In this document: positions 15,620 to 26,408 of the stretch, one piece after another | Numbering within the stretch: the first letter of the stretch is position 1 | Layout of the letters: each line of letters begins with the position of its first letter | DNA from: Clostridia bacterium | GTDB lineage: Bacteria; Bacillota; Clostridia; Christensenellales; Aristaeellaceae | NCBI GenBank assembly: GCA_017519405.1 | Contig: JAFWSH010000005.1 | Span: forward strand, 124,001 to 188,000 | Direction: 5' to 3' | DNA length: 64,000 bases | The notes under the pieces: model-generated | Told to the model about the DNA's origin: nothing | Seen by the model: the letters and a program-made list of their open reading frames with translations, nothing else | Databases searched by the model: none | Made by a program: the position numbers and the translations under genes

Positions 15620-16000
15620 ATGACCCTGGATGAAATCATGTTTTTTGAGGGCCATTCCGCCGCGCTGCCCCTGTACGAGAAACTGAAAGGCAGGATCCTG
15701 GCAGAGGTCCCGGAGGCCCGGACCGAGGTCAGGAAGACGCAGATTTCCTTCTTCGCGAAACACATGTTTGCGGCGGTGTCCTTCACGCCCGTCCGGAGAG
15801 CGGCAGCGCGTCCGGATTCATTCCTGACCGTGACCTTCGGCCTGCGCTGCCGGAGCACTTCCCCCCGCATCGACGCGGCGGTGGAGCCCTGTCCGGGCCG
15901 CTGGACGCACCATGTCATGATCGGCTCGCCGGAAGAGGTGGATGCAGAGCTGATGGGCTGGATCCGGGAGGCAGCCGCGTCCGCATCCGGAAAGCGCTGA
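15620..16000 (+). CDS. DUF5655 family protein, 126 aa
   Basis: Small soluble protein with the features of DUF5655: an N-terminal helix (ALPLYEKLKGRIL), KTQISFFAKHMFAAVSF in the middle and WTHHVMIGSPEEVDAELMGWIREA at the end. The family has a YdhG/YdeI-like alpha-beta fold and no assigned activity. It is followed 17 bp later by a DUF2200 gene, and the two appear to form a small operon. Slightly different codon texture from the preceding lipoprotein gene. The fold assignment is from memory of the family. Confidence 0.75.
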   Translation: MTLDEIMFFEGHSAALPLYEKLKGRILAEVPEARTEVRKTQISFFAKHMFAAVSFTPVRRAAARPDSFLTVTFGLRCRSTSPRIDAAVEPCPGRWTHHVMIGSPEEVDAELMGWIREAAASASGKR

Positions 16001-16017
16001 ACAGGAGGAAGGCTGCC

Positions 16018-16353
16018 ATGCCGAGAAAAACTGTTTTTGAGATGAAGGCCTCCCAGGTCTATCCGCTGCTGGTGCAGAAAGCGGAGCGCAAGGGCCGCAG
16101 CAGGGCCGAGGTGGACCGGGTGACCGCCTGGCTCACGGGGTATGACATGGCGGCCGCCGACCTGGACGTGACCTGGGCGGAATTCTTTGAGCACGCGCCT
16201 CACATGAACCCGCGGGCCAGCCTGATCAAGGGCAGCGTCTGCGGCGTGAAGGTGGAGGAGATCGAAGACCCGCTGATGCAGAAGATCCGCTGGCTGGACA
16301 AGCTGGTGGACGAGCTGGCGAAGGGGAAGCCGCTGGACAAGGTGCTGCGGTGA
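16018..16353 (+). CDS. DUF2200 family protein, 111 aa
   Basis: The whole length matches the DUF2200 pattern: VFEMKASQVYPLLVQKAERKGRS, VTAWLTGYDMA, EFFEHAPHMNPRASLIKGSVCGV and the well conserved VEEIEDPLMQKIRWLDKLVDELAKG near the end. The family is widespread in Firmicutes and Bacteroidetes with no known activity. Strong AGGAGGAAGG ribosome site. Paired with the DUF5655 gene and followed by a terminator. Confidence 0.88.
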   Translation: MPRKTVFEMKASQVYPLLVQKAERKGRSRAEVDRVTAWLTGYDMAAADLDVTWAEFFEHAPHMNPRASLIKGSVCGVKVEEIEDPLMQKIRWLDKLVDELAKGKPLDKVLR

Positions 16354-16480
16354 AGCGGCCGGGTGGAAATGCCTGATTCCACCCTCTGCCGTCACCCCGA
16401 TCAGGAGTTTGCCGGGTGATATTGCATAGTTCGGTTCCATGGCCGTTCCGGATTGCCCATGGTTGTGCACCGTTTCCGTT

Positions 16481-16507
16481 CCGGCCCGGCTTCGGGTCCT
16501 GCTGCGG
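16481..16507 (+). repeat. left copy of a repeat flanking the RiPP cluster
   Basis: CCGGCCCGG (16481-16489) followed by CGGGTCCTGCTGCGG (16493-16507). The same elements, closed up by 4-5 bp, occur at 24387-24407 just after the cluster. The 341-bp stretch 16354-16694 holds this, a terminator and the cluster promoter, and no gene. Confidence 0.5.
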
Positions 16508-16517
16508 CCGCCGCAAT

Positions 16518-16544
16518 CCCTCCTCCGTAAGGACGAGGGGTTTT
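16518..16544 (+). terminator. terminator after the DUF2200 gene
   Basis: Stem CCCTCCTCC (16518-16526) with GGACGAGGG (16531-16539), one mismatch, GTAA loop, followed by TTTT. Confidence 0.55.
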
Positions 16545-16583
16545 GTTGTCTCCGGATAGGGAAAGGCCCTGTGCTTCCATATC

Positions 16584-16613
16584 TTGACACAGCCGGCATT
16601 CTGGCATTATAAT
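16584..16613 (+). promoter_or_regulatory. strong promoter of the RiPP cluster
   Basis: Full consensus TTGACA (16584-16589) and TATAAT (16608-16613) with an 18-bp spacer, 81 bp before the first precursor gene. Confidence 0.85.
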
Positions 16614-16694
16614 CCAACAACAGACGGCAATTTAACATCCCGGCTGTTCAGGCAAACACAACAACGACGACAGGGATCGAAGGAGGAAAACACC

Positions 16695-17084
16695 ATGGCA
16701 AACAACAGTGCGGCTATCGAGTTTCTTAAGAAGGTCCTGGCGGACGAGGCGCTGAAGGCCCGCGTGGCAAAGGACCCCGCTCAGGCGGCGGCAGTGGCGG
16801 CGGAGCTGGGCTATGAGATCACCGCAGAGGAGCTGGCGGCAGCGGAGAATGCGCTTCACGTTCCGGCCGAAGCGGAGGTTGTGGAGCTGGACGAGGCGGA
16901 CATGGACCGTGCGGCGGGCGGCGGATGCTGGAACGGAGAGGACGCGCCGGACGGCCATGAGATGGGCTGCCACATCTTCTACCACGACAATGACTACAGC
17001 CAGGCAACCGGCAATTTCTGCGAGCGGGTCTACTATGTAAAGGGCTGCCGGTCTTTCGGCTGTGTCGAAACAAGTGATCTTTGA
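16695..17084 (+). CDS. Nif11-like leader RiPP precursor A
   Basis: Precursor of 129 aa. The start at 16695 has AAGGAGGAAAACACC in front. Residues 1-75 form a Nif11-type leader: AIEFLKKVLADEALKARV, AELGYEITAEEL, then VELDEADMDRAAGGG ending in a Gly-Gly processing site. The core of about 52 residues begins CWNGEDAPDGHEMGC and continues with FYHDNDYS and five cysteines in total, ending ...SFGCVETSDL. Nif11-type leaders are known RiPP leaders cut by C39 peptidases. The core motif APDGHEM recurs in precursor B. The stop overlaps the region before the radical SAM start. The final modification is unknown. Confidence 0.92.
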   Translation: MANNSAAIEFLKKVLADEALKARVAKDPAQAAAVAAELGYEITAEELAAAENALHVPAEAEVVELDEADMDRAAGGGCWNGEDAPDGHEMGCHIFYHDNDYSQATGNFCERVYYVKGCRSFGCVETSDL

Positions 17085-17086
17085 CA

Positions 17087-18538
17087 ATGAAGTACATTCT
17101 TGACCGCCGTTACCGCCTGCGCGGCTGGCATAAGCTGCCCACGGGCGTATACGATGCGCAGAAGCACACGGCGCAGTTTTTTACGCCGGAATACTACAGG
17201 CTGCTTCTGCGCTGCGACGCGGCCCACGACATCGACCCGGACACGCTGCCGGAGAAGCAGCGGGCGTTCCTGGCGGGTCTGCAGGCGGACGGCGTCATTC
17301 GTCCCGCGGGCTGGCTGGACTTTCTGCTGCCGGAGCAGCACTACAAGGCCTACCCCGCCCGCTACCGGCGGGAGGCCCACTGGTCCATCACCGGGGAGTG
17401 CAATTTCCGCTGTGCCCACTGCTTCATGTCTGCCCCCTCAGGCAAGCACGGCAGTCCTTCCCACGAAGAGCTCATCCGCGTGGCGGACATGCTGGCCCAG
17501 TGCGGGGTCTTCCGGGTGGGCCTGACGGGCGGGGAGCCCCTGATCCGCGCTGATTTTGTGGCGCTCCTGGATGCTCTCCGGGAGCGGGAGATCGCCGTGT
17601 CCACCCTCTACACCAACGGCTGGCTGGTGGATGAACACCTGCTGGATGAGCTGGAAAAGCGGGAGATGCACCCCCAGTTCCAGCTGAGCTTCGACGGCGT
17701 GGGCTGGCACGACTTCCTGCGCGGAGTGCCGGGCGCGGAGGAGCGGACGCTGTCTGCCCTTCGCCTGCTGCACGAGCGGGGTTACAGGACAGCCGTCTCC
17801 TTCTGCCTGCACCGGAAAAACGCCCACACCCTCAGGGAGACAATCCGACTGCTCGCCTCCCTGGGGGTTTCCAGCGTGAAAACCGGCAGCATGATGGAGC
17901 TGGGGGAATGGGCCAGGGAGGAAGTGCGGGAACTCCAGCTCACGCCCGCCGAGGAGCAGGAGATCTTCGAGCACTATATTCCCCAATACTTCGAGGACGA
18001 CGCGCCGCTGTCCCTCATGCTGGGCGGTTCCTTCGTGTATACGCCGGGGGACAGCGCGTGGAGCATCTTCAACGAACGGAGATGCCCGGAGGAGGACGAG
18101 GGGACCATGCTTTCCTGCGGCGTGCTGGCGCATTCCTTCTATATCGGCGCGGACGGGCTGGTCTGCCCCTGCATGGGCATGGCGGACTGCGGCTTCACGG
18201 ATCATTTCCCCAGCCTGGAGAAGACGCCCCTCAGCGCCATCCTCACGGATTCCGACCTGATCACCTATGAATACGCCACCGTAGGCGACATCCGGAGCCG
18301 GAACGAAAAGTGCAGGCGGTGCAGGTTCGTGGACCGCTGCACCGGCGGCTGCCGGAACGCCGCGCTGATCGCGGGGGACGACTATTACGGCATCGATCCC
18401 GCCATGTGCGCGTTCTTCGAAAACGGCTGGGATCAGCGGATCCGGGACGCGGCACAGCCCGCCTTCGAGGCGTATCTGAAGCGGAACCCACCCCGCAGCA
18501 ATGGCGAAAAGAAACCGGACATCGAGATGCAATGTTGA
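17087..18538 (+). CDS. radical SAM/SPASM RiPP maturase
   Basis: Protein of 483 aa. The first ~90 residues look like a winged-helix leader-recognition (PqqD/RRE-like) domain. The radical SAM cluster motif CNFRCAHC gives Cys 105, 109 and 112, followed by LTGGEPL for SAM binding. The C-terminal SPASM region carries CGVLAHSFYIGADGLVCPC, CGF and CRRCRFVDRCTGGCR, enough cysteines for auxiliary 4Fe-4S clusters. Such enzymes install thioether, C-C or similar links in RiPP cores. There is no strong ribosome site; translation is probably coupled to precursor A, with ATG 17087 or TTG 17081 as start. It sits between the two precursor genes. Confidence 0.93.
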   Translation: MKYILDRRYRLRGWHKLPTGVYDAQKHTAQFFTPEYYRLLLRCDAAHDIDPDTLPEKQRAFLAGLQADGVIRPAGWLDFLLPEQHYKAYPARYRREAHWSITGECNFRCAHCFMSAPSGKHGSPSHEELIRVADMLAQCGVFRVGLTGGEPLIRADFVALLDALREREIAVSTLYTNGWLVDEHLLDELEKREMHPQFQLSFDGVGWHDFLRGVPGAEERTLSALRLLHERGYRTAVSFCLHRKNAHTLRETIRLLASLGVSSVKTGSMMELGEWAREEVRELQLTPAEEQEIFEHYIPQYFEDDAPLSLMLGGSFVYTPGDSAWSIFNERRCPEEDEGTMLSCGVLAHSFYIGADGLVCPCMGMADCGFTDHFPSLEKTPLSAILTDSDLITYEYATVGDIRSRNEKCRRCRFVDRCTGGCRNAALIAGDDYYGIDPAMCAFFENGWDQRIRDAAQPAFEAYLKRNPPRSNGEKKPDIEMQC

Positions 18539-18551
18539 GGAGGTATGACAG

Positions 18552-18974
18552 ATGGCGCTGGAAAACGCAAAGAAGTTTCTGGAGATGGTGACGGCCGACG
18601 CGGCGCTGGCGGAGCGGCTCAAGACCATGAAGCCGGAGGAAGTGACGGCCCTTGCCGCGGAACGGGGCTTTGAAGCAAGCGCCCGGGAACTGGAGCAGGC
18701 AGCCAGGGCGCTGCGCAGCGCAGCCCGTCCCGGAAGCGTGGAGCTGGACCCGGAGGACATGGACCGGGTCGCCGGCGGCATATTCTGGCGTGGCGATGCT
18801 GCCCCGGACGGCCATGAGATGGCTTGCTTCCTCACCTATCACAACATGGACTGGAGCCGGGAAAACAACATCTGGTGCACCAGCAATCACTTCTGGTCCG
18901 GCTGCAGCAGCAACGGGCACGTCAGCAACGGCGTACCCGTGGAGGATGAACAGAAGGTCATCCGCGTAAAGTGA
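18552..18974 (+). CDS. Nif11-like leader RiPP precursor B
   Basis: Precursor of 140 aa with GAGGAGGTATGACAG before the ATG. The leader (AKKFLEMVTADAALAERL, AAERGFEASARELEQAARAL) ends VELDPEDMDRVAGG, closely matching precursor A. The core begins IFWRGDAAPDGHEMAC and continues TYHNMDWS ... WC ... GCSS with three cysteines that align with three of those in precursor A. It ends with a polar tail VEDEQKVIRVK. The gene starts 13 bp after the radical SAM stop and is followed by a terminator. It is likely a second substrate of the same enzyme. Confidence 0.92.
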   Translation: MALENAKKFLEMVTADAALAERLKTMKPEEVTALAAERGFEASARELEQAARALRSAARPGSVELDPEDMDRVAGGIFWRGDAAPDGHEMACFLTYHNMDWSRENNIWCTSNHFWSGCSSNGHVSNGVPVEDEQKVIRVK

Positions 18975-19098
18975 CCCGCGCAGAGCAGTGACAACATCCT
19001 CCCCCACGCCCTGAAGGGTTCCCATCCAATCCGGCGGCGGCCGTTCCGGCCGGGGCGGTGTCCCGGATGCTGCCGGCAAGGGCAGTCCGATGGGCAGA

Positions 19099-19141
19099 GC
19101 CATGCGATTGACGCATCAAAATGTCCGGCGCATGGCTTTTT
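19099..19141 (+). terminator. terminator inside the RiPP cluster
   Basis: Perfect stem GCCATGCG (19099-19106) with CGCATGGC (19129-19136) followed by TTTTT. It separates the precursor/maturase genes from the export genes; the 257-bp gap 18975-19231 holds no other clear signal. Confidence 0.8.
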
Positions 19142-19231
19142 GGTGACTCAGGACGGAAAGAGGGCGGGCCCGGGGGTCCCCCGGTGGATGCTTTCATGTT
19201 ATAGCGGTTTGATCTGTGAGGAGCTGTCAAA

Positions 19232-19918
19232 ATGGCGAAGCTGTTGTTCCGAAAGAAAAGCATGGACAGGATCTCGTCCCCCGATGAGATGCGGGATTAC
19301 CTGCGCGTCACCAGCCCCAGGCTGTGGATGCTGCTGGGCACGATCATCCTGCTGCTGGCGGGCTTTGTTTTCTATGCCGCCACCAGCAGGATGGAGAGCA
19401 CCTATCCGCTGAAGATGGAATTCTACACACGGGATCTGATCAGCGGAGAAATCCCCTTCGACCGGATGGATCACTTCTCCGTGGGGATGCCCGTGCGGAT
19501 CGCAGGCGAGACGGGGAGCATCCAGAGCATCTTTGCCAGCGCCAGAGTCCGGCTGGACCTGATGCCGGACACCAGCGCGGACTTCGAGGAAGGCCTGTAC
19601 TATATGGCCATCGGGGAAGGCACGAGCGTAAGCATAGAAGATATGCACTATCTCCGATACAGCAATGGGGTGTGGACCTGCTCGAACCTGAGCCTCCAGC
19701 AGCAGCTGGAGAACCGGGACACCCGGGTGCGGATCTGGAGCGCGGAGGATGAGGCGCTGGCGGAGGGCCGCCTGGCCACCGTCAGCGACGCCGAGCCCTA
19801 TATGGTGGCCGAGGCAACCGTCATGCTGGACAGCGAGGAAACCGCCCTGCAGCCCGGCCGTTATGACGCGGAAATCGTGACGGAAAACACAACCCCCATC
19901 AGCTTCCTGCTGAACTGA
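19232..19918 (+). CDS. NHLP-type export membrane-fusion protein
   Basis: Protein of 228 aa. It starts MAKLLFRKKSMDRISSPDEM, the typical opening of NHLP bacteriocin-system HlyD-like proteins, then has one transmembrane segment (about residues 34-50, LWMLLGTIILLLAGFVFYA). The outside part is shorter than a full HlyD adaptor and lacks the long coiled coil, as expected for a Gram-positive system. It has GMPVRIAGETGSIQSI in place of the lipoyl-like hairpin. GAGGAGCTGTCAAA precedes the ATG. It is directly followed by the peptidase exporter gene, so it should bridge or stabilise that exporter. The family call rests on the N-terminus and gene order. Confidence 0.82.
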   Translation: MAKLLFRKKSMDRISSPDEMRDYLRVTSPRLWMLLGTIILLLAGFVFYAATSRMESTYPLKMEFYTRDLISGEIPFDRMDHFSVGMPVRIAGETGSIQSIFASARVRLDLMPDTSADFEEGLYYMAIGEGTSVSIEDMHYLRYSNGVWTCSNLSLQQQLENRDTRVRIWSAEDEALAEGRLATVSDAEPYMVAEATVMLDSEETALQPGRYDAEIVTENTTPISFLLN

Positions 19919-19936
19919 ATGCGGGAGGAAAACGGG

Positions 19937-22123
19937 ATGAAGGAGAAGGCAAAAACCAGGCAGCCCGTCAAAAGCGGCGTTGCCCGGGTGCCCGTGATCA
20001 TGCAGATGGAGGCGCTGGAGTGCGGCGCTGCGTGTCTGGCCATGATCCTGGCCTATTATCAGAAGTGGGTGCCGCTGGAGCAGGTGCGCCTGGACTGCGG
20101 CGTTTCCAGGGACGGCTCCCGGATGAAAAACATCTATCTGGCGGGCAAGCACTACGGCCTGGAGGCCCACGGATACCGGATGGAGCTCGAGGGGCTGAAG
20201 AAGGCCGCTTCTTTTCCCTGCATCATTCACTGGGAGTTCAACCATTTTGTGGTGCTGGACGGCTTCCGGGGCGACAGGGCCGTCATCAACGATCCCGCCC
20301 GGGGCAGGGTGCTGGTGAGCATGGAACAGTTCGACCAGTCCTTCACCGGCTTTTGCCTGACCTTTGCGCCGGGGCCGGACTTCGTCCCCTCCGGAAAGCG
20401 GAAGAGCACCCTGGATTTTGCCCGCAAACGGCTCCGGGGCGCGGGGCCTGCCGTTGCCTTCGTGACGCTGACCGGCGTGATCGCCTATCTGTTCGGCATC
20501 ATCAATCCCACCATGTCCCGGATCTTCTATGACCGGCTTCTGAGCCGGAGAGCGCCTGAATGGCTGCTTCCGTTCATCGGCGTGATGGGCGCCCTGGCCG
20601 CCTTCCAGCTGATTGTGGAGTGGACCACGGCGGTCTATTCCCTGAAGATCAACGGAAAGATGGCCATCGAGGGCAATGCCTCCTACATGTGGAAGGTGCT
20701 TCGCCTGCCCATGTCGTTTTTCTCCCAGCGGCTGTCGGGGGATATCCTGCAGCGGAAGGGGGCCAACGCCTCCATCGCCGGCACGCTGGTGAACACCGTG
20801 GCGCCCCTGGCGCTCAATACCGTCATGATGGTGTTCTATCTCATCGTCATGCTGCAATACAGCCCCGTAATGACGGCGGTGGGGCTGGGGTCCCTGGTCC
20901 TCAATCTGCTGGTGGCCCGCTACCTGTCCGCCCGGCGGGTGAACATGAAGCGCGTCCAGCTCCGAGACGCCGGAAAGCTGTCCGCCGCCACCCTCTCCGG
21001 CATCAGCATGGCGGAGACCATCAAGGCCTCCGGCGCGGAGGCCGGGTTTTTCCGGAAATGGAGCGGCTATCAGGCCTCCGTTAACAAGCAGGAGGTCAGG
21101 TTCTCCACCCTGAATGCCCGCGTGGGCCTGATCCCCCAGTTCATCAGCACGGCGTCCAACTACCTGGTGCTGTTCCTGGGGGTGCGGCTGGCCATGGAGG
21201 GCAGTTTCACCCTGGGCATGATCGCCACCTTCCAGGGGCTCCTCTCCTCCTTCATGAGGCCGGCCAGCACCCTCATCAACGCCGGCCAGGCCATCCAGGA
21301 GATGCGCACGGAGATGGAGCGGATCGAGGACGTCATGGAGTATCCGGACGACCCGGTGATCGCCCGGGATGCGCCTGTGGAGGAAGGAAAGCAGTACGCG
21401 AAGCTCCGGGGCGAAATCCGGATCACCGGGCTGACCTTCGGCTATTCCCGGCTTGATGACCCTGTGATTTCCGACTTCTCCATGCATGTGAAGCCCGGAC
21501 AGCGCGTCGCCATCGTGGGGGCCAGCGGATGCGGGAAATCCACCGTCAGCAAGCTGATCACTGGACTGTATGAGCCCTGGGCGGGGGAAATCCTGTTTGA
21601 CGGGAAGCCCATCGGGGAGATCGACCGCAGCGTGTTCACGGGCTCGGTGGCCATGGTGGATCAGGACATTGTCCTGTTTGAGGACACCATTGCCAACAAT
21701 ATCCGCATGTGGGATGACACCATCGCGGACTACGAGGTGATCCTGGCCGCCCGGGACGCGCAGATCCACGACGACATCCTGGCGCGCCCCGGCGGGTACC
21801 AGGGCAGGCTGAACGAAAACGGGCGGGACCTGTCCGGCGGCCAGCGGCAGCGGCTTGAGATCGCCAGGGTGCTGGCCCAGGATCCCGCCATCATCATCCT
21901 GGACGAGGCCACCAGCGCCCTGGACGCAAAGACGGAATACGACCTGACGAAGGCCATCAAGGACCGGGGCATCACCTGCATTGTAGTGGCCCACCGCCTG
22001 TCCACCATCCGGGACTGTGACGAGATCATTGTGCTGGACAAGGGGACGATTGTGGAACGCGGCACCCATGAGGCGCTTTTTGCCAAGGGCGGCGCCTACG
22101 CGGAGCTGGTGACCAGCGAATAA
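19937..22123 (+). CDS. C39 peptidase-ABC exporter (NHLP system, peptidase/permease/ATPase)
   Basis: Protein of 728 aa. The chosen ATG at 19937 follows GGGAGGAAAACGGG; an ATG at 19919 abuts the previous stop. The N-terminal C39 peptidase has QMEALECGAAC with catalytic Cys 29, NHFVVLDGF with the catalytic His, and INDPARG with the Asp, so it looks active. Six-helix membrane domain at about 160-440. The ATPase has Walker A GASGCGKST, Q-loop VDQDIVLF, signature LSGGQRQRLE, Walker B IIILDEATSALD and the switch His in VVAHRLS. It should cut precursors A and B after Gly-Gly and export the cores. Confidence 0.95.
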   Translation: MKEKAKTRQPVKSGVARVPVIMQMEALECGAACLAMILAYYQKWVPLEQVRLDCGVSRDGSRMKNIYLAGKHYGLEAHGYRMELEGLKKAASFPCIIHWEFNHFVVLDGFRGDRAVINDPARGRVLVSMEQFDQSFTGFCLTFAPGPDFVPSGKRKSTLDFARKRLRGAGPAVAFVTLTGVIAYLFGIINPTMSRIFYDRLLSRRAPEWLLPFIGVMGALAAFQLIVEWTTAVYSLKINGKMAIEGNASYMWKVLRLPMSFFSQRLSGDILQRKGANASIAGTLVNTVAPLALNTVMMVFYLIVMLQYSPVMTAVGLGSLVLNLLVARYLSARRVNMKRVQLRDAGKLSAATLSGISMAETIKASGAEAGFFRKWSGYQASVNKQEVRFSTLNARVGLIPQFISTASNYLVLFLGVRLAMEGSFTLGMIATFQGLLSSFMRPASTLINAGQAIQEMRTEMERIEDVMEYPDDPVIARDAPVEEGKQYAKLRGEIRITGLTFGYSRLDDPVISDFSMHVKPGQRVAIVGASGCGKSTVSKLITGLYEPWAGEILFDGKPIGEIDRSVFTGSVAMVDQDIVLFEDTIANNIRMWDDTIADYEVILAARDAQIHDDILARPGGYQGRLNENGRDLSGGQRQRLEIARVLAQDPAIIILDEATSALDAKTEYDLTKAIKDRGITCIVVAHRLSTIRDCDEIIVLDKGTIVERGTHEALFAKGGAYAELVTSE

Positions 22124-22158
22124 AGGGAGCAGGCGTTTCAGCCGAAGGGAGCAGCACC

Positions 22159-24351
22159 ATGGGTTGGTTTGACGAACAGATCCGGCAGCGCATGGAAAAC
22201 GACCAGGAGGTCCTGGAGGATTCCTTTGTCCGCATGATCAGCGTGGTGCTGGGCAAATGGGAGGCCAGCCACCTGGAGGACAGCCGTTTCACGGCCAAGG
22301 CGGCGCTGGATGAAATCCTGGGATACTATCGGCTAAAGCCCGTCGAGGTCCCGGAGGGCGCCCAGAGCCTGACGCAGAAGATGGAGGCCGTCCTGCGGCC
22401 CTCCGGCCTGATGGTGCGGGAGGTTGACCTGGAGGAGGGCTGGCAGCACGACGCCTATGGTCCGCTGCTGGGAACCTTCCGGGAGAGTGGGCAGGCGGTG
22501 GCGCTGCTGCCCTCCGGCCTGTCCGGGTACTGCTATCGGGACCCGGAGACGGGAAAACGGCGGCGGATCACGCGGGAGAACGCCGGTCTCTTCGCGCAGG
22601 AAGCCCTGTGCTTCTACCGGCCCATGCCCATGAAGCGCCTGGGGATCCCCGATCTGCTGATCTATATGAAAAACTGCATCTCCCGGGGAGATATCCTCCT
22701 GATCGTGCTGGCCACCCTGGCCATGACGGTGGTGGGCATGATTGAGCCCAGGGTCTATCATCTGATCACCGGCACGGTGCTTGAGGACAAGCGGATGAAC
22801 CTGATGCTGGGCATGGGCGTGTTCCTGCTCTGCTCGGCCTTTGCCGCCCAGCTGGTGGGGCTGATGCGTTCCCTGCTCATGGAGCGGATCAACACCAAAA
22901 TGTCCCAGAGTGTGCAGGCGTCCGTCATGATGCGCATCCTCTCCCTGCCGGTCAGTTTTTTCAGAACCTGTGCCTCCGGTGAGCTGGCGAGCCGCGCCTC
23001 CTCTGTCAGTTCCCTGTGCAGCATGATCCTGAACAACATCTTTTCCATCGGCCTGTCCAGCCTGATGTCCCTGTTGTATGTCTCGCAGATCTTCTCCTTT
23101 GCCCCGACCCTGGTGGTGCCGTCTGTCCTGATCATCCTGGCCACCGTCGTGCTCAGCGTGGCGGCCTCCCTGGTGCAGATCGGCATCGCCAGAAGGCAGA
23201 TGAAGCTGTCCGCAGAAGAGGCCGGCATGAGCTATGCCGTCCTGAACGGGGTGCAGAAAATCCGCCTGGCCGGCGCGGAAAAGCGGGTGTTTGCCCGCTG
23301 GGGACGGCTCTACGCCAAGGAGGCGAAGCTGGAATATGATCCGCCGCTCTTCCTGAAGCTCAACAGCGTGCTCATCACCGCCATCTCCCTGGTCGGCACC
23401 ATCGCGCTGTATTACCTGGCGGTCAAAACAGGTGTCGGCGAGGGCGAGTATTACGCCTTCAGCGCCGCCTACGGCCGCGTGATGGGCGCGTTTTCCGCCA
23501 TGGCGGGCATTGCGGTTTCCGTCGCCGGCATCAGGCCTGTGTTGGAGATGGCAGAGCCGATCCTGAAGGCCGTGCCGGAGACGGCCGCGGAAAAGGAACC
23601 GGTATCCCGGCTGAGCGGAAGCATCGAGATGAGCCACGTGTCCTTCCGCTATGGGGAAACCGCCCCTTATGTCCTGCATGATTTGAGCCTGAAAATCAAA
23701 GCCGGGGAGTATGTGGCCATTGTGGGCCGCACAGGCTGCGGCAAATCCACCCTGGTACGGCTGCTGCTGGGCTTTGAAAAGCCGGAGAAGGGCACGGTGT
23801 TCTACGATCAGTACGACCTGAACGGGGTCGACCCCTGCTCCGTCCGCAAGCAGATCGGCGCCGTCATCCAGAACGGGCAGCTGTTCCAGGGGGATATCTA
23901 CTCCAACATCGTGATTTCAGCCCCGGGGCTGTCCCTGGAGGAGGCCTGGGAGGCCGCCGAGATTGCCGGCATCGCCCAGGATATCCGGGAGATGCCCATG
24001 GGCATGCAGACCTTGATCTCGGAGGGCCAGGGCGGGATTTCCGGCGGGCAGAAGCAGCGGCTGATGATCGCCCGCGCCGTCGCGCCCAAGCCGAAGATCC
24101 TGATCTTCGACGAGGCCACCAGCGCCCTGGACAACAAGACGCAGCGCCAGGTGTCGGAGGCGCTGGACAAGCTGCAATGCACCCGCATCGTCATTGCCCA
24201 CCGGCTCTCCACCATCCGCAACTGCGACCGCATTCTGGTGATGGAGGGGGGCGGCATCGCCGAGGAGGGGACCTACGACGAGCTGATCCGGAAGAACGGG
24301 TATTTCGCCCATCTGGTGCAGAGGCAGCGGCTGGATCAGGCAGGGGGGTGA
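22159..24351 (+). CDS. NHLP-system ABC transporter without peptidase domain
   Basis: Protein of 730 aa. The N-terminal ~170 residues are a soluble domain unlike a C39 peptidase, with no Cys/His pair. A membrane domain lies at about 175-470 and an ATPase at the C-terminus: GRTGCGKSTLV, GGISGGQKQRLM, ILIFDEATSALD, VIAHRLS. This matches the second ABC protein of NHLP systems, which accompanies the peptidase-exporter and may form a heterodimer with it. AGGGAG precedes ATG, 35 bp after the exporter stop. Last gene of the cluster before a strong terminator. Confidence 0.9.
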   Translation: MGWFDEQIRQRMENDQEVLEDSFVRMISVVLGKWEASHLEDSRFTAKAALDEILGYYRLKPVEVPEGAQSLTQKMEAVLRPSGLMVREVDLEEGWQHDAYGPLLGTFRESGQAVALLPSGLSGYCYRDPETGKRRRITRENAGLFAQEALCFYRPMPMKRLGIPDLLIYMKNCISRGDILLIVLATLAMTVVGMIEPRVYHLITGTVLEDKRMNLMLGMGVFLLCSAFAAQLVGLMRSLLMERINTKMSQSVQASVMMRILSLPVSFFRTCASGELASRASSVSSLCSMILNNIFSIGLSSLMSLLYVSQIFSFAPTLVVPSVLIILATVVLSVAASLVQIGIARRQMKLSAEEAGMSYAVLNGVQKIRLAGAEKRVFARWGRLYAKEAKLEYDPPLFLKLNSVLITAISLVGTIALYYLAVKTGVGEGEYYAFSAAYGRVMGAFSAMAGIAVSVAGIRPVLEMAEPILKAVPETAAEKEPVSRLSGSIEMSHVSFRYGETAPYVLHDLSLKIKAGEYVAIVGRTGCGKSTLVRLLLGFEKPEKGTVFYDQYDLNGVDPCSVRKQIGAVIQNGQLFQGDIYSNIVISAPGLSLEEAWEAAEIAGIAQDIREMPMGMQTLISEGQGGISGGQKQRLMIARAVAPKPKILIFDEATSALDNKTQRQVSEALDKLQCTRIVIAHRLSTIRNCDRILVMEGGGIAEEGTYDELIRKNGYFAHLVQRQRLDQAGG

Positions 24352-24386
24352 GGCAGTCCCGGCCGGCATGTGGATGCGGGCTGTCT

Positions 24387-24407
24387 CCGGCCCGGGTCCT
24401 GCTGCGG
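24387..24407 (+). repeat. right copy of a repeat flanking the RiPP cluster
   Basis: CCGGCCCGG (24387-24395) runs directly into the 15-bp CGGGTCCTGCTGCGG (24393-24407), which is identical to 16493-16507 before the cluster. Confidence 0.5.
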
Positions 24408-24419
24408 TCTCCGGCACGG

Positions 24420-24457
24420 GAGAAGCCTGCTTTCGCAGGCTTCTCTTTCCATTTTTT
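24420..24457 (+). terminator. terminator of the RiPP cluster
   Basis: Perfect 11-bp stem GAGAAGCCTGC (24420-24430) / GCAGGCTTCTC (24435-24445) with a TTTC loop, followed by T-rich sequence to 24457. The gap 24352-24701 also holds the repeat, a promoter and a palindrome, but no gene. Confidence 0.88.
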
Positions 24458-24480
24458 CCCATGCCCACTCAATCTCTGTC

Positions 24481-24509
24481 TTGTCACCTCACAAAGAAAA
24501 TGTTACAAT
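24481..24509 (+). promoter_or_regulatory. promoter for the SpoIIE-type phosphatase operon
   Basis: TTGTCA (24481-24486), 17-bp spacer, TACAAT (24504-24509) in an AT-rich stretch. It implies an unusually long leader of about 185 bases before the start codon. Confidence 0.7.
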
Positions 24510-24519
24510 AATTTGGGTT

Positions 24520-24531
24520 GTTGTATACAAC
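24520..24531 (+). promoter_or_regulatory. palindromic operator candidate
   Basis: Perfect 12-bp palindrome GTTGTATACAAC placed just downstream of the -10 box, where a bound repressor would block initiation. No regulator gene is adjacent. Confidence 0.4.
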
Positions 24532-24701
24532 CGGTGATTGCTGCGCAAAGGGGTGGACAGGGATGCTGCGTTTTTCTTCGCTCGAGCCGGCAGGCAAGCG
24601 GTATCACTGCGCCTTTTTCGCATTCCCGTAACAGGTCGTCTGGCGGGGGCATCCCCTCCCCGCGGCGGCCTTATCTTTGATTCCCGTCAGGAGTTAACAA
24701 G

Positions 24702-26408
24702 ATGAAACACAGGCGTTTATCACTCACCGTGAAGGTGAATATCCTGCTGGTGGCACTGGTGCTGCTGACCGCCGCACTGCTGTTTTTCAGCAGCGAGAGA
24801 GCTTTCCGGCAGGCAGTGTTCGATCCCTGCGCCCATAAGCTGGAAAAGGCGGGGACTGACGCAGAAACCCTGGCGCAGTTCTGTTCCTTGATCAAGTACT
24901 ATTTGGGCACGGAGGAGCTGAACGGGGTAGTCGCCCAAAGCCAGGCGGACCAGACGCCGCTGCGGGAATGGATGGCACAGCAGCCCTCCGTGGGCTCGGA
25001 CCCGAAGGCCGCCACCCTGCTGGATGACTATGAACGGTTCTACTCCTTCGTGGATTTCCTCCGGCTGCGCGGCAATGTGGATACCTCCTTCGTCCAGATC
25101 GATAAGGACGGAACCACCTGGACGATCTGTTATAGCAACAGAGAATACCACGGCGACACGCTGGAACTCTTCGGCGTGGAGCAATATCTGCTGCCCCCTG
25201 AGGAGTTCGTCGAGGCGAACATCTTTCGGGATGGGACCTCCTACTTTATGCTGCGCTGCATCCAATTTGACATTGGGGACGGCGACTGGATGAACCTGTG
25301 GGCGATGATGGACATGACGGATGAGTTCCAGGAACACAGCCAGTTCGTCCTGCGCAACATCCTGTTCATCCTGGTCCTCACCGCGCTGACCTCCGTGGCC
25401 AGCATCCTGCTGATGCGGCGAATTGTGACTCAGCCGATCCGCAGCCTTGCCCGGGCGGCGGAGGGCTTCACGCCGGAGGAGGACGGCTCCTATTCCATGG
25501 AGAAAGTGATCTCGGTGGGGACGCGCCGCCGGGATGAGATCGGCGAGCTCAGCCGGAATATCCGCGCCATGCAGGAGGGCATCGTGGACAATACCCATCG
25601 GCTGGCCCAGCTGACGGCGGAGAGGGAGCGGGTCCAGACCGAGCTGGACATGGCCGCCGGCATCCAGGCCAGCGCCCTGCCCAGCACCTTCCCGGCCTTC
25701 CCGGACCGCACGGACTTCAGCATCTGGGCCACCATGACCCCCGCCAAGGAGGTGGGCGGCGACTTCTACGACTTCTTCCTGATCGACGAAAGCCACCTGG
25801 GCGTGGTGATAGCAGACGTGTCGGACAAGGGCGTCCCCGCTGCCCTGTTCATGATGACCGCCCGCACCCTGGTGCAGATCTACGCCAGGATGCACCTGAG
25901 CCCTGCGGAGACGCTGCGCAGCGCTAACGAGTGGCTCCGGGCCAACAACGAGGCGGCCATGTTCGTCACCATGTGGTTCGGCATCCTGGACCTCGCCAGC
26001 GGCGTTATCACCGCCGTGAACGCGGGGCATGAGTACCCCGTGCTGAAATCCGGCGGGAAGGGCTTTGAACTCCTCCGGGACAAGCACGGCTTCGTGGTGG
26101 GCGTGTCCCCGAAGACGAAGTTCACCGAGTATGAAATCCGCTTGGCCCCCGGTGACCGGCTCTTCCTCTACACCGACGGCGTGCCGGAGGCGCAGACGGC
26201 AGATAAGCACATGTTCGGGATGGAGCGCATGGTGGCGGCGCTGAACGAGGTTCCCGACGCGCCGCCGGAGCAGGTACTGGCCCATGTCCGCGCCGCAGTG
26301 GACCGCTTCATCCACGGTGCAAAGCAGTTCGACGACCTGACCATGCTCTGCCTGGAGTACCGGGGCAGCGCGGCGGAGGAACCGGCAGAGGTGGCGGCAC
26401 ATGATTGA
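24702..26408 (+). CDS. HAMP-SpoIIE/PP2C-type serine phosphatase
   Basis: Protein of 568 aa. One transmembrane helix at about 9-28, an extracellular sensor domain (about 30-220), a second helix at about 222-242, a HAMP segment (RRIVTQPIRSLARAAEGF) and a short coiled coil. A SpoIIE-type PP2C domain fills the last ~235 residues with GGDFYDFF, VVIADVSDKGVPAALFM, GHEYPVL and LFLYTDGVPEAQ. These aspartates bind the catalytic metals. Relatives such as RsbU dephosphorylate anti-anti-sigma factors, and partners are usually encoded elsewhere, as here. AGGAG before ATG. It overlaps the next gene by 8 bp. Confidence 0.93.
   Translation: MKHRRLSLTVKVNILLVALVLLTAALLFFSSERAFRQAVFDPCAHKLEKAGTDAETLAQFCSLIKYYLGTEELNGVVAQSQADQTPLREWMAQQPSVGSDPKAATLLDDYERFYSFVDFLRLRGNVDTSFVQIDKDGTTWTICYSNREYHGDTLELFGVEQYLLPPEEFVEANIFRDGTSYFMLRCIQFDIGDGDWMNLWAMMDMTDEFQEHSQFVLRNILFILVLTALTSVASILLMRRIVTQPIRSLARAAEGFTPEEDGSYSMEKVISVGTRRRDEIGELSRNIRAMQEGIVDNTHRLAQLTAERERVQTELDMAAGIQASALPSTFPAFPDRTDFSIWATMTPAKEVGGDFYDFFLIDESHLGVVIADVSDKGVPAALFMMTARTLVQIYARMHLSPAETLRSANEWLRANNEAAMFVTMWFGILDLASGVITAVNAGHEYPVLKSGGKGFELLRDKHGFVVGVSPKTKFTEYEIRLAPGDRLFLYTDGVPEAQTADKHMFGMERMVAALNEVPDAPPEQVLAHVRAAVDRFIHGAKQFDDLTMLCLEYRGSAAEEPAEVAAHD

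Follow-up and report, generated by a model that had tools for sequence, protein, structure and literature searches.

Between positions 16584 and 24447 of the window (the whole stretch of DNA that was analysed, 64,000 nucleotides), a set of genes probably forms a RiPP operon in which cysteine-based thioether crosslinking, C39 cleavage at Gly-Gly and export would yield two related peptides, a reading that we hold with moderate confidence. The parts, their motifs, their conservation and their co-occurrence are established from the sequence; the modification, cysteine as its donor and the identity of the acceptor are what we infer. The architecture is known, and the enzyme family and core family are apparently uncharacterised. 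The cluster adds an enzyme family for which no characterised or curated member was found, together with a natural substrate series in which the core type varies and the enzyme clade stays constant. Such a series lends itself to studying how donor and acceptor residues are chosen by a radical SAM maturase.

Organization of the cluster

The window belongs to a genome assembly (2.27 Mb, contig 22, 80% complete). The cluster lies on the forward strand in the order promoter, precursor A, radical SAM/SPASM enzyme, precursor B, accessory protein, ABC1, ABC2 and terminator, with the following features:

16584..16613, +, sigma-70 promoter TTGACA-18-TATAAT, 12/12 consensus positions
16695..17084, +, 129-aa precursor A with Nif11-type leader, residues 75–76 Gly-Gly (PF07862 35.9 bits, TIGR03798 34.9 bits)
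16923..17081, +, precursor A core, type I, GCWNGEDAPDGHEMGC...FC... (alignment A1; D86, G87, E89, C92 and C109 invariant)
17087..18538, +, 483-aa maturase of the radical SAM/SPASM type, first ~95 residues conserved (PF04055 and SPASM over cut-off; 23-row clade)
18552..18974, +, precursor B, Nif11-type leader, 140 aa (PF07862 48.4 bits, TIGR03798 55.7 bits)
18780..18971, +, precursor B core, type I, IFWRGDAAPDGHEMAC...WC... (alignment A1; 127-nt direct repeat with A)
19096..19139, +, hairpin with a long loop and a T run, perhaps a weak terminator or an attenuator (fold z −1.5; absent from the terminator scan)
19232..19918, +, small accessory protein of the exporter, HlyD-like, 228 aa, with a single hydrophobic stretch seen by eye (TIGR03794 N-terminus, E 0.054)
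19937..22123, +, NHLM ABC1: C39 peptidase, permease and ATPase (TIGR03796 916 bits against a cut-off of 853; PF03412; motifs)
22159..24351, +, NHLM ABC2: permease and ATPase (TIGR03797 724 bits against a cut-off of 709; motifs)
24418..24447, +, intrinsic terminator, 13-pair stem, loop of 4, T run

The single run described in the initial annotation was located in full, including its consensus promoter and the terminator at its end, and every catalytic motif named there (CNFRCAHC, the SPASM cysteines, C39 Cys-His-Asp and the ATPase motifs) is present. The promoter is the top of four sites in 9 kb, shuffled sequences giving a mean of 1.7. Two bases separate the stop of precursor A from the enzyme gene and 13 separate the enzyme gene from precursor B, which is followed by a 257-base gap before the small accessory-protein gene. 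A terminator had also been claimed after precursor B; the terminator scan of this gap found none, leaving the hairpin at 19096–19139 (−25.9 kcal/mol over the 71 nt folded), which 19 of 200 shuffles equal in energy. Rfam gave nothing at gathering score over 16000–25000, and PADLOC returned weak viperin-like matches only. A foreign base composition and carriage by phage or plasmid were rejected: cluster windows have a GC content of 0.61–0.65 against 0.59–0.70 in adjoining windows, there is no phage match at E 1e-20, and the single plasmid match has 27% identity over 70%.

Exporter and accessory protein

ABC1 and ABC2 both score above the curated cut-offs and both carry complete ATPase motif sets, which upholds the proposed C39 peptidase-ABC exporter and second NHLP ABC protein. 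In ABC1 the C39 residues are Cys29, His103 and Asp119 (numbered from 19937); an alternative start, ATG at 19919, would add six residues. The window's genome, 80% complete, holds one ABC2 over the cut-off.

The 228-residue protein had been called a membrane-fusion protein, which is a weak assignment. No Pfam model passed on it, and the HlyD-like model TIGR03794 matches residues 13–43 only, at 12.4 bits against a cut-off of 156.2. Many relatives have a related small protein (118–253 residues, measured from stop to stop) encoded ahead of ABC1, so it is probably part of the exporter.

Precursors and the type I core

Both precursors are Nif11-type, as had been proposed: A and B exceed the cut-offs of the Nif11 model PF07862 (23.8 bits) and of TIGR03798 (32.3 bits), and their leaders end in Gly-Gly, which is found in 24/24 precursors compared. 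They account for all Nif11 matches in the 80% complete genome. Their cores had been treated as separate sequences; alignment puts both in one family, type I, with the short form W-x-G-E-D-A-[PS]-D-G-H-E-M-G-C-x3-[YFW]-H...W-C and, in alignment A1, the rough consensus x-W-x-G-[ED]-[DE]-A-[PS]-D-G-H-E-M-G-C-x3-[YFW]-H-x3-[YW]...N-x-W-C-x3-[YFHWN]. A 127-nt direct repeat (74%) at 16881–17007 and 18738–18864 spans the leader end and core start of A and B.

D86, G87, E89, C92 and C109 (A numbering) do not vary in the 24 type I precursors compared. Left out of this set are L016, which holds copies of L017, and the variants found at L070, L080 and L081. Of the other positions, H88 is kept in 22, Trp79 in 20, H97 in 19 and Trp at 108 in 19 of the 24. 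Position 96 is aromatic in all 23 rows of A1 and in L013 (SPIDGHELFC), which A1 additionally omits. Mean entropy across the 24 is 1.52 bits in the leader, 1.63 at residues 77–115 and 2.99 after residue 115. The second conserved cysteine is absent from two outlying copies that resemble type I. One is an orphan precursor in genome G287 (L118 179–628) with Arg at that position and no enzyme within the 9 kb fetched; the other (L070 5525, genome G267) keeps DGHE and the first cysteine and adjoins a 42% identical enzyme.

The radical SAM/SPASM enzyme

With PF04055 and SPASM over cut-off, CNFRCAHC at residues 105–112, CX12GX4C at 344–362 and CX2CX5CX3C at 409–422, the enzyme is the SPASM radical SAM protein that the initial annotation had named. 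Both CX3CX2C and the SPASM cysteine set are present; the seven SPASM-region cysteines, C441 included, are invariant across 49 aligned enzymes.

Among the 25 best of 75 NCBIfam models, none reaches its cut-off with this enzyme. The top match is ScmE, with 106 bits against a cut-off of 400; a score of this size for a radical SAM model indicates the fold only. TIGR04103 (nif11 maturase 3) scores 70.1 of 725 bits, the sactipeptide maturase models StsB (81.3 of 625) and AlbA (52.1 of 850) miss widely, and TIGR04064 (nif11 radical SAM maturase) is not among the 25. The StsB model matches all 49 aligned members of the enzyme family at E ≤ 1e-10. Placement in a known maturase clade was rejected on the models examined; a characterised clade with the same core, which would have spoken against the initial annotation, was found neither there nor in the literature searched (see below). 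By profile, the closest solved structure is SkfB, the maturase of sporulation killing factor, a distant match at 96 bits. SkfB forms a thioether, and as nearest structure it may lend mild support to thioether chemistry. The profile of the first ~96 residues retrieved no credible recognition-element relative among solved structures.

Core types and the enzyme tree

Two further core types occur beside related enzymes. Type II reads R-D-W-x3-G-C-A-A-T-V-E-x2-S-x-C-W-x2-D-x-C (alignment A4, 12 rows, other type II cores from L070 and L117 being omitted) and type III reads C-x3-[FY]-x-D-x-E-N-C-W-x2-D-[GA]-C-D (A5, 15 rows, without L008 14670). They have C-x9-C-x3-D-x-C-x6-Y in common, small gaps aside, and match by profile in hhalign (83%, E 8e-6). 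A shared origin of type I and the other two types was rejected, hhalign giving 1.6 and 2.1% only against II and III, and on these values the D-x5-C spacing that types I and II share by eye is a mere resemblance.

In a tree of 57 enzymes, from which L016 and L019 are excluded, the window's enzyme falls in a 23-row clade with support 100/100. Type III is seen with this clade only, type I likewise bar the L070 variant, and type II elsewhere too; other subclades have cores of their own, e.g. C-x-C-x2-G-G-G-G or C-F-A-D-Y-D-C. Core type tracks the enzyme tree: it changes eight times over the 36 labelled of 57 tips, against at least 17 (mean 21) in 300 label shuffles. Loci with several types carry one label each (L003, L005, L006 and L008 as I, L070 as II), and L056 is labelled I from core fragments. 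The 21 uncounted tips include L083 and L084, which have cores outside all of the types.

Within the 23-row clade a single enzyme often adjoins several core types, with I, I, II and III at L003, I, II and III at L005, I, I and II at L006, and ten precursors (two type I and eight type III) at L008. The genome that is apparently that of L006 (G299, 83% complete) has one enzyme of the family at E 1e-60. This neighbourhood suggests that the enzyme may be promiscuous, as ProcM is for prochlorosins.

Several arrangements of precursors were noted alongside. In a sister subclade (L065, L066, L071, L072, L076 and L078) the Nif11 precursors carry repeated C-x-C-x2-G-G-G-G-like cores, and at L071 eight such precursors surround one enzyme. 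In one genome, two precursors with different leaders (L008 15454–15594 and L119 1–141) are identical over 141 bases that start at VVKATGG, take in the core and run up to the end of the contig; this is a core cassette behind two leaders, and its exact length may reflect the assembler. Some type II precursors carry a zinc-ribbon-like CxxC...CxxC tail after the core (L005 125–652, L006 7618–8118, L022 9649–10041, L055 5191–5694 and L068 7437–7895); by pattern such tails occur in 8 of 103 precursors, not all of type II, and their Pfam matches are below cut-off where scanned.

Cysteine conservation and the proposed modification

Over all enzyme subclades at least two cysteines are found in 89 of 90 cores, with a mean of 4.83 cysteines per core against 0.13 per leader; this set drops 5 of 95 precursors for an unclear Gly-Gly or a short core and excludes Nif11 matches below 30 bits. 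In type I, Cys-x3-[Tyr/Phe/Trp] and Asp-x5-Cys are each present in 25/25 cores (shuffle means 10.9 and 5.9), Cys-x3-Asp/Glu in 3/25 (11.4) and Cys-x3-Asp in 0/25 (6.2), the shuffles ignoring kinship. Cys-x3-Asp is not enriched across all 90 cores (33, shuffle mean 30.8). It is carried by types II and III, for which alignments A4 and A5 are the independent evidence: the 17/17 count for type III is circular, its selection pattern containing Cys-x3-Asp, and so is the 9/9 count of D-x5-C in type II, selected by a pattern containing D-x5-C. In PMC9413430, PapB is described as linking Cys to the beta carbon of Asp in a Cys-x3-Asp motif, giving a thioether. The PapB-type motif was rejected for the window's own cores; as type I lacks Cys-x3-Asp, PapB chemistry is not transferable to it.

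The simplest reading would be a cysteine-based ring closure with a type-specific acceptor. In this scheme the radical SAM/SPASM enzyme, with the core presented to it by the Nif11 leader, would probably join C92 and/or C109 of A, and their counterparts in B, to carbons of nearby residues to form thioether rings. Candidate acceptors are the aromatic residue at position i+4 and D86, six residues before C92. ABC1 would then cut after Gly-Gly with its C39 domain, and ABC1 and ABC2 with the small accessory protein would export two related peptides, which may serve as bacteriocins, signals or metal binders. No immunity gene stood out in the annotation.

The conserved cysteines could equally be disulfides or metal ligands, and two alternatives build on such roles. 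In one, which we judge unlikely, the enzyme makes a cyclophane-like C–C or ether crosslink from an aromatic residue (Trp79, Tyr96, His97 or Trp/Phe108) to a neighbour and the cysteines form only disulfides or bind metal. The conservation of Trp79, of Trp at 108 and of an aromatic residue at 96 described above speaks for this, as do the weak TIGR04103 match and the cores at clade-1 loci, of which 43 of 44 contain Trp; against it, the curated cut-off of that model is far off, and over all subclades 15 of 90 cores have no Trp whereas one has no Cys. In the other, slightly less likely, the Asp-Gly-His-Glu...Cys...Tyr-His...Trp-Cys block would be a metal- or cofactor-binding peptide tuned by a small radical-enzyme change and exported for metal handling. 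The five invariant residues together with H88 and H97 would suit such a site, and CxxC...CxxC tails occur in some sister-type precursors, but the zinc-ribbon matches fall below the Pfam cut-offs.

Radical SAM/SPASM enzymes are chemically diverse as a group, and no curated model among those examined identifies this one, so that another radical reaction (backbone splicing, epimerisation or methylation) with incidental cysteine conservation is conceivable; we regard it as improbable given that cysteines are concentrated in the cores and nearly absent from the leaders in the sampled subclades. A decayed or unexpressed cluster without product is highly improbable. The sequence comes from a metagenome assembly only and the enzyme is patchy, occurring in 2 of the 12 listed genomes of the genus, but the frames are open, the promoter is perfect, the catalytic motifs are complete and the core block is kept in divergent relatives.

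Relation to known systems

As the initial annotation recognised, the class of Nif11 leader plus radical SAM maturase is already known: PMC2887384 and PMC3023750 describe Nif11 precursors together with the exporter trio, and present radical SAM proteins as the sole candidate maturase, the link of these precursors to the NHLM exporter appearing in PMC2887384. The TIGR04064 system (Haft 2011, PMC3023750) resembles the window in leader family, single radical SAM maturase and NHLM exporter. The TIGR04064 model is not among the best 25 of 75 for the window's enzyme, and the window's core family is absent from the literature searched. Six strings taken from these cores occur in no paper of that literature, which is weak evidence as most subscription journals lie outside it, and no description of a Nif11/radical SAM/NHLM system with these cores was found there. 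The proposal in the initial annotation that the cluster probably makes a new modified peptide is thus supported, the modification itself being inferred.

The freyrasin ranthipeptide system PapA/PapB (PMC9413430) likewise pairs a Cys-rich core with a radical SAM maturase, and its Cys-x3-Asp recurs in the sister types II and III; type I differs as detailed above, and the likeness is by motif, not by PapB sequence. Sactipeptides (SkfB, StsB; ruminococcin C, PMC8188230) also depend on radical SAM maturases of Cys cores, with SkfB as the nearest solved structure, whereas the window has a Nif11 leader and an NHLM exporter and its enzyme widely misses the StsB and AlbA cut-offs. Prochlorosins (PMC10783134) similarly combine many Nif11 precursors of differing cores with one enzyme, as at L008; there the enzyme is the lanthionine synthetase ProcM rather than a radical SAM enzyme, the window has only two precursors, and its promiscuity is read from gene neighbourhood. 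A bolder proposal, which we find doubtful, is that the family is a radical SAM counterpart of the prochlorosin system: one promiscuous family, mostly within one gut Clostridia family, would form i to i+4 Cys rings with the acceptor set by core type (Asp in II/III, aromatic in I), its core cassettes being duplicated and re-joined to other leaders. If true, the aromatic residue of type I would represent a novel sort of acceptor for a thioether.

Distribution

A pattern-based enzyme scan of 84,980 species genomes gave 21 loci, whose titles name a ruminant gut site for eight, "RUG" assemblies for eight and no habitat for five. We take RUG to mean rumen, which makes 16/21 loci ruminant by title. 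The source bacterium is probably from a ruminant gut, and the family would offer ring scaffolds of uncultured gut bacteria, a large share of which live in ruminants.

In the window's own family, 43 of 300 genomes (17 of 50 genera) have the enzyme family at E 1e-60, and ten have the enzyme at ≥58% identity. At E 1e-80, 6 of the 396 genomes sampled from the order have it; five of the six belong to the window's family, its own genome among them. In the class it is found in 2 of 391 genomes, one again the window's own; it is rare in the sampled genomes outside the window's family. The type I core profile is found in 8 of the 300 family genomes, all eight among the 43 with the enzyme family (one of them, G267, through its weak core variant and 42% identical enzyme only), and in the 396 genomes of the order in the window's own alone. 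By eye, all 13 loci with a type I precursor (from the 24-row set or the copy L016) have the enzyme, and seven (the window, L003, L005, L006, L014, L016 and L017) have both exporter ABC genes, several of the other six being short contigs. The enzyme is also on contigs filed as Erysipelotrichaceae (L013) and Coriobacteriales (L021). As the neighbours at L021 resemble Tat-signal flavoproteins by eye, horizontal transfer to this locus is plausible, with mis-binning as the alternative.

Neighbouring genes

In all three loci of one subclade the radical SAM gene and the type I precursor are separated by a Fic/DOC gene with an HPFxDGNGRTLR motif, whose product is possibly a further modifying enzyme:

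L061 6738–7505, −, Fic/DOC (PF02661)
L062 3388–4551, +, Fic/DOC (PF02661)
L063 518–1582, −, Fic/DOC (by similarity)

Partner-switching genes (SpoIIE phosphatase, STAS and RsbW-like kinase) are present on 10 of the 21 loci at which both ABC genes score at least 600 bits: the window (24702–26408), L007, L014, L016, L017, L019, L059, L076, L078 and L086, of which L014, L016, L017 and L019 are close kin. The window's genome has four SpoIIE matches in all, and no papers linking NHLP to anti-sigma were found in the literature searched. At L086, SpoIIE, STAS and kinase genes stand directly before the exporter. A sigma-70 family (ECF-like) gene directly precedes the radical SAM gene at L014 (8491–8985, by Pfam) and, by similarity, at its relatives L016, L017 and L019.
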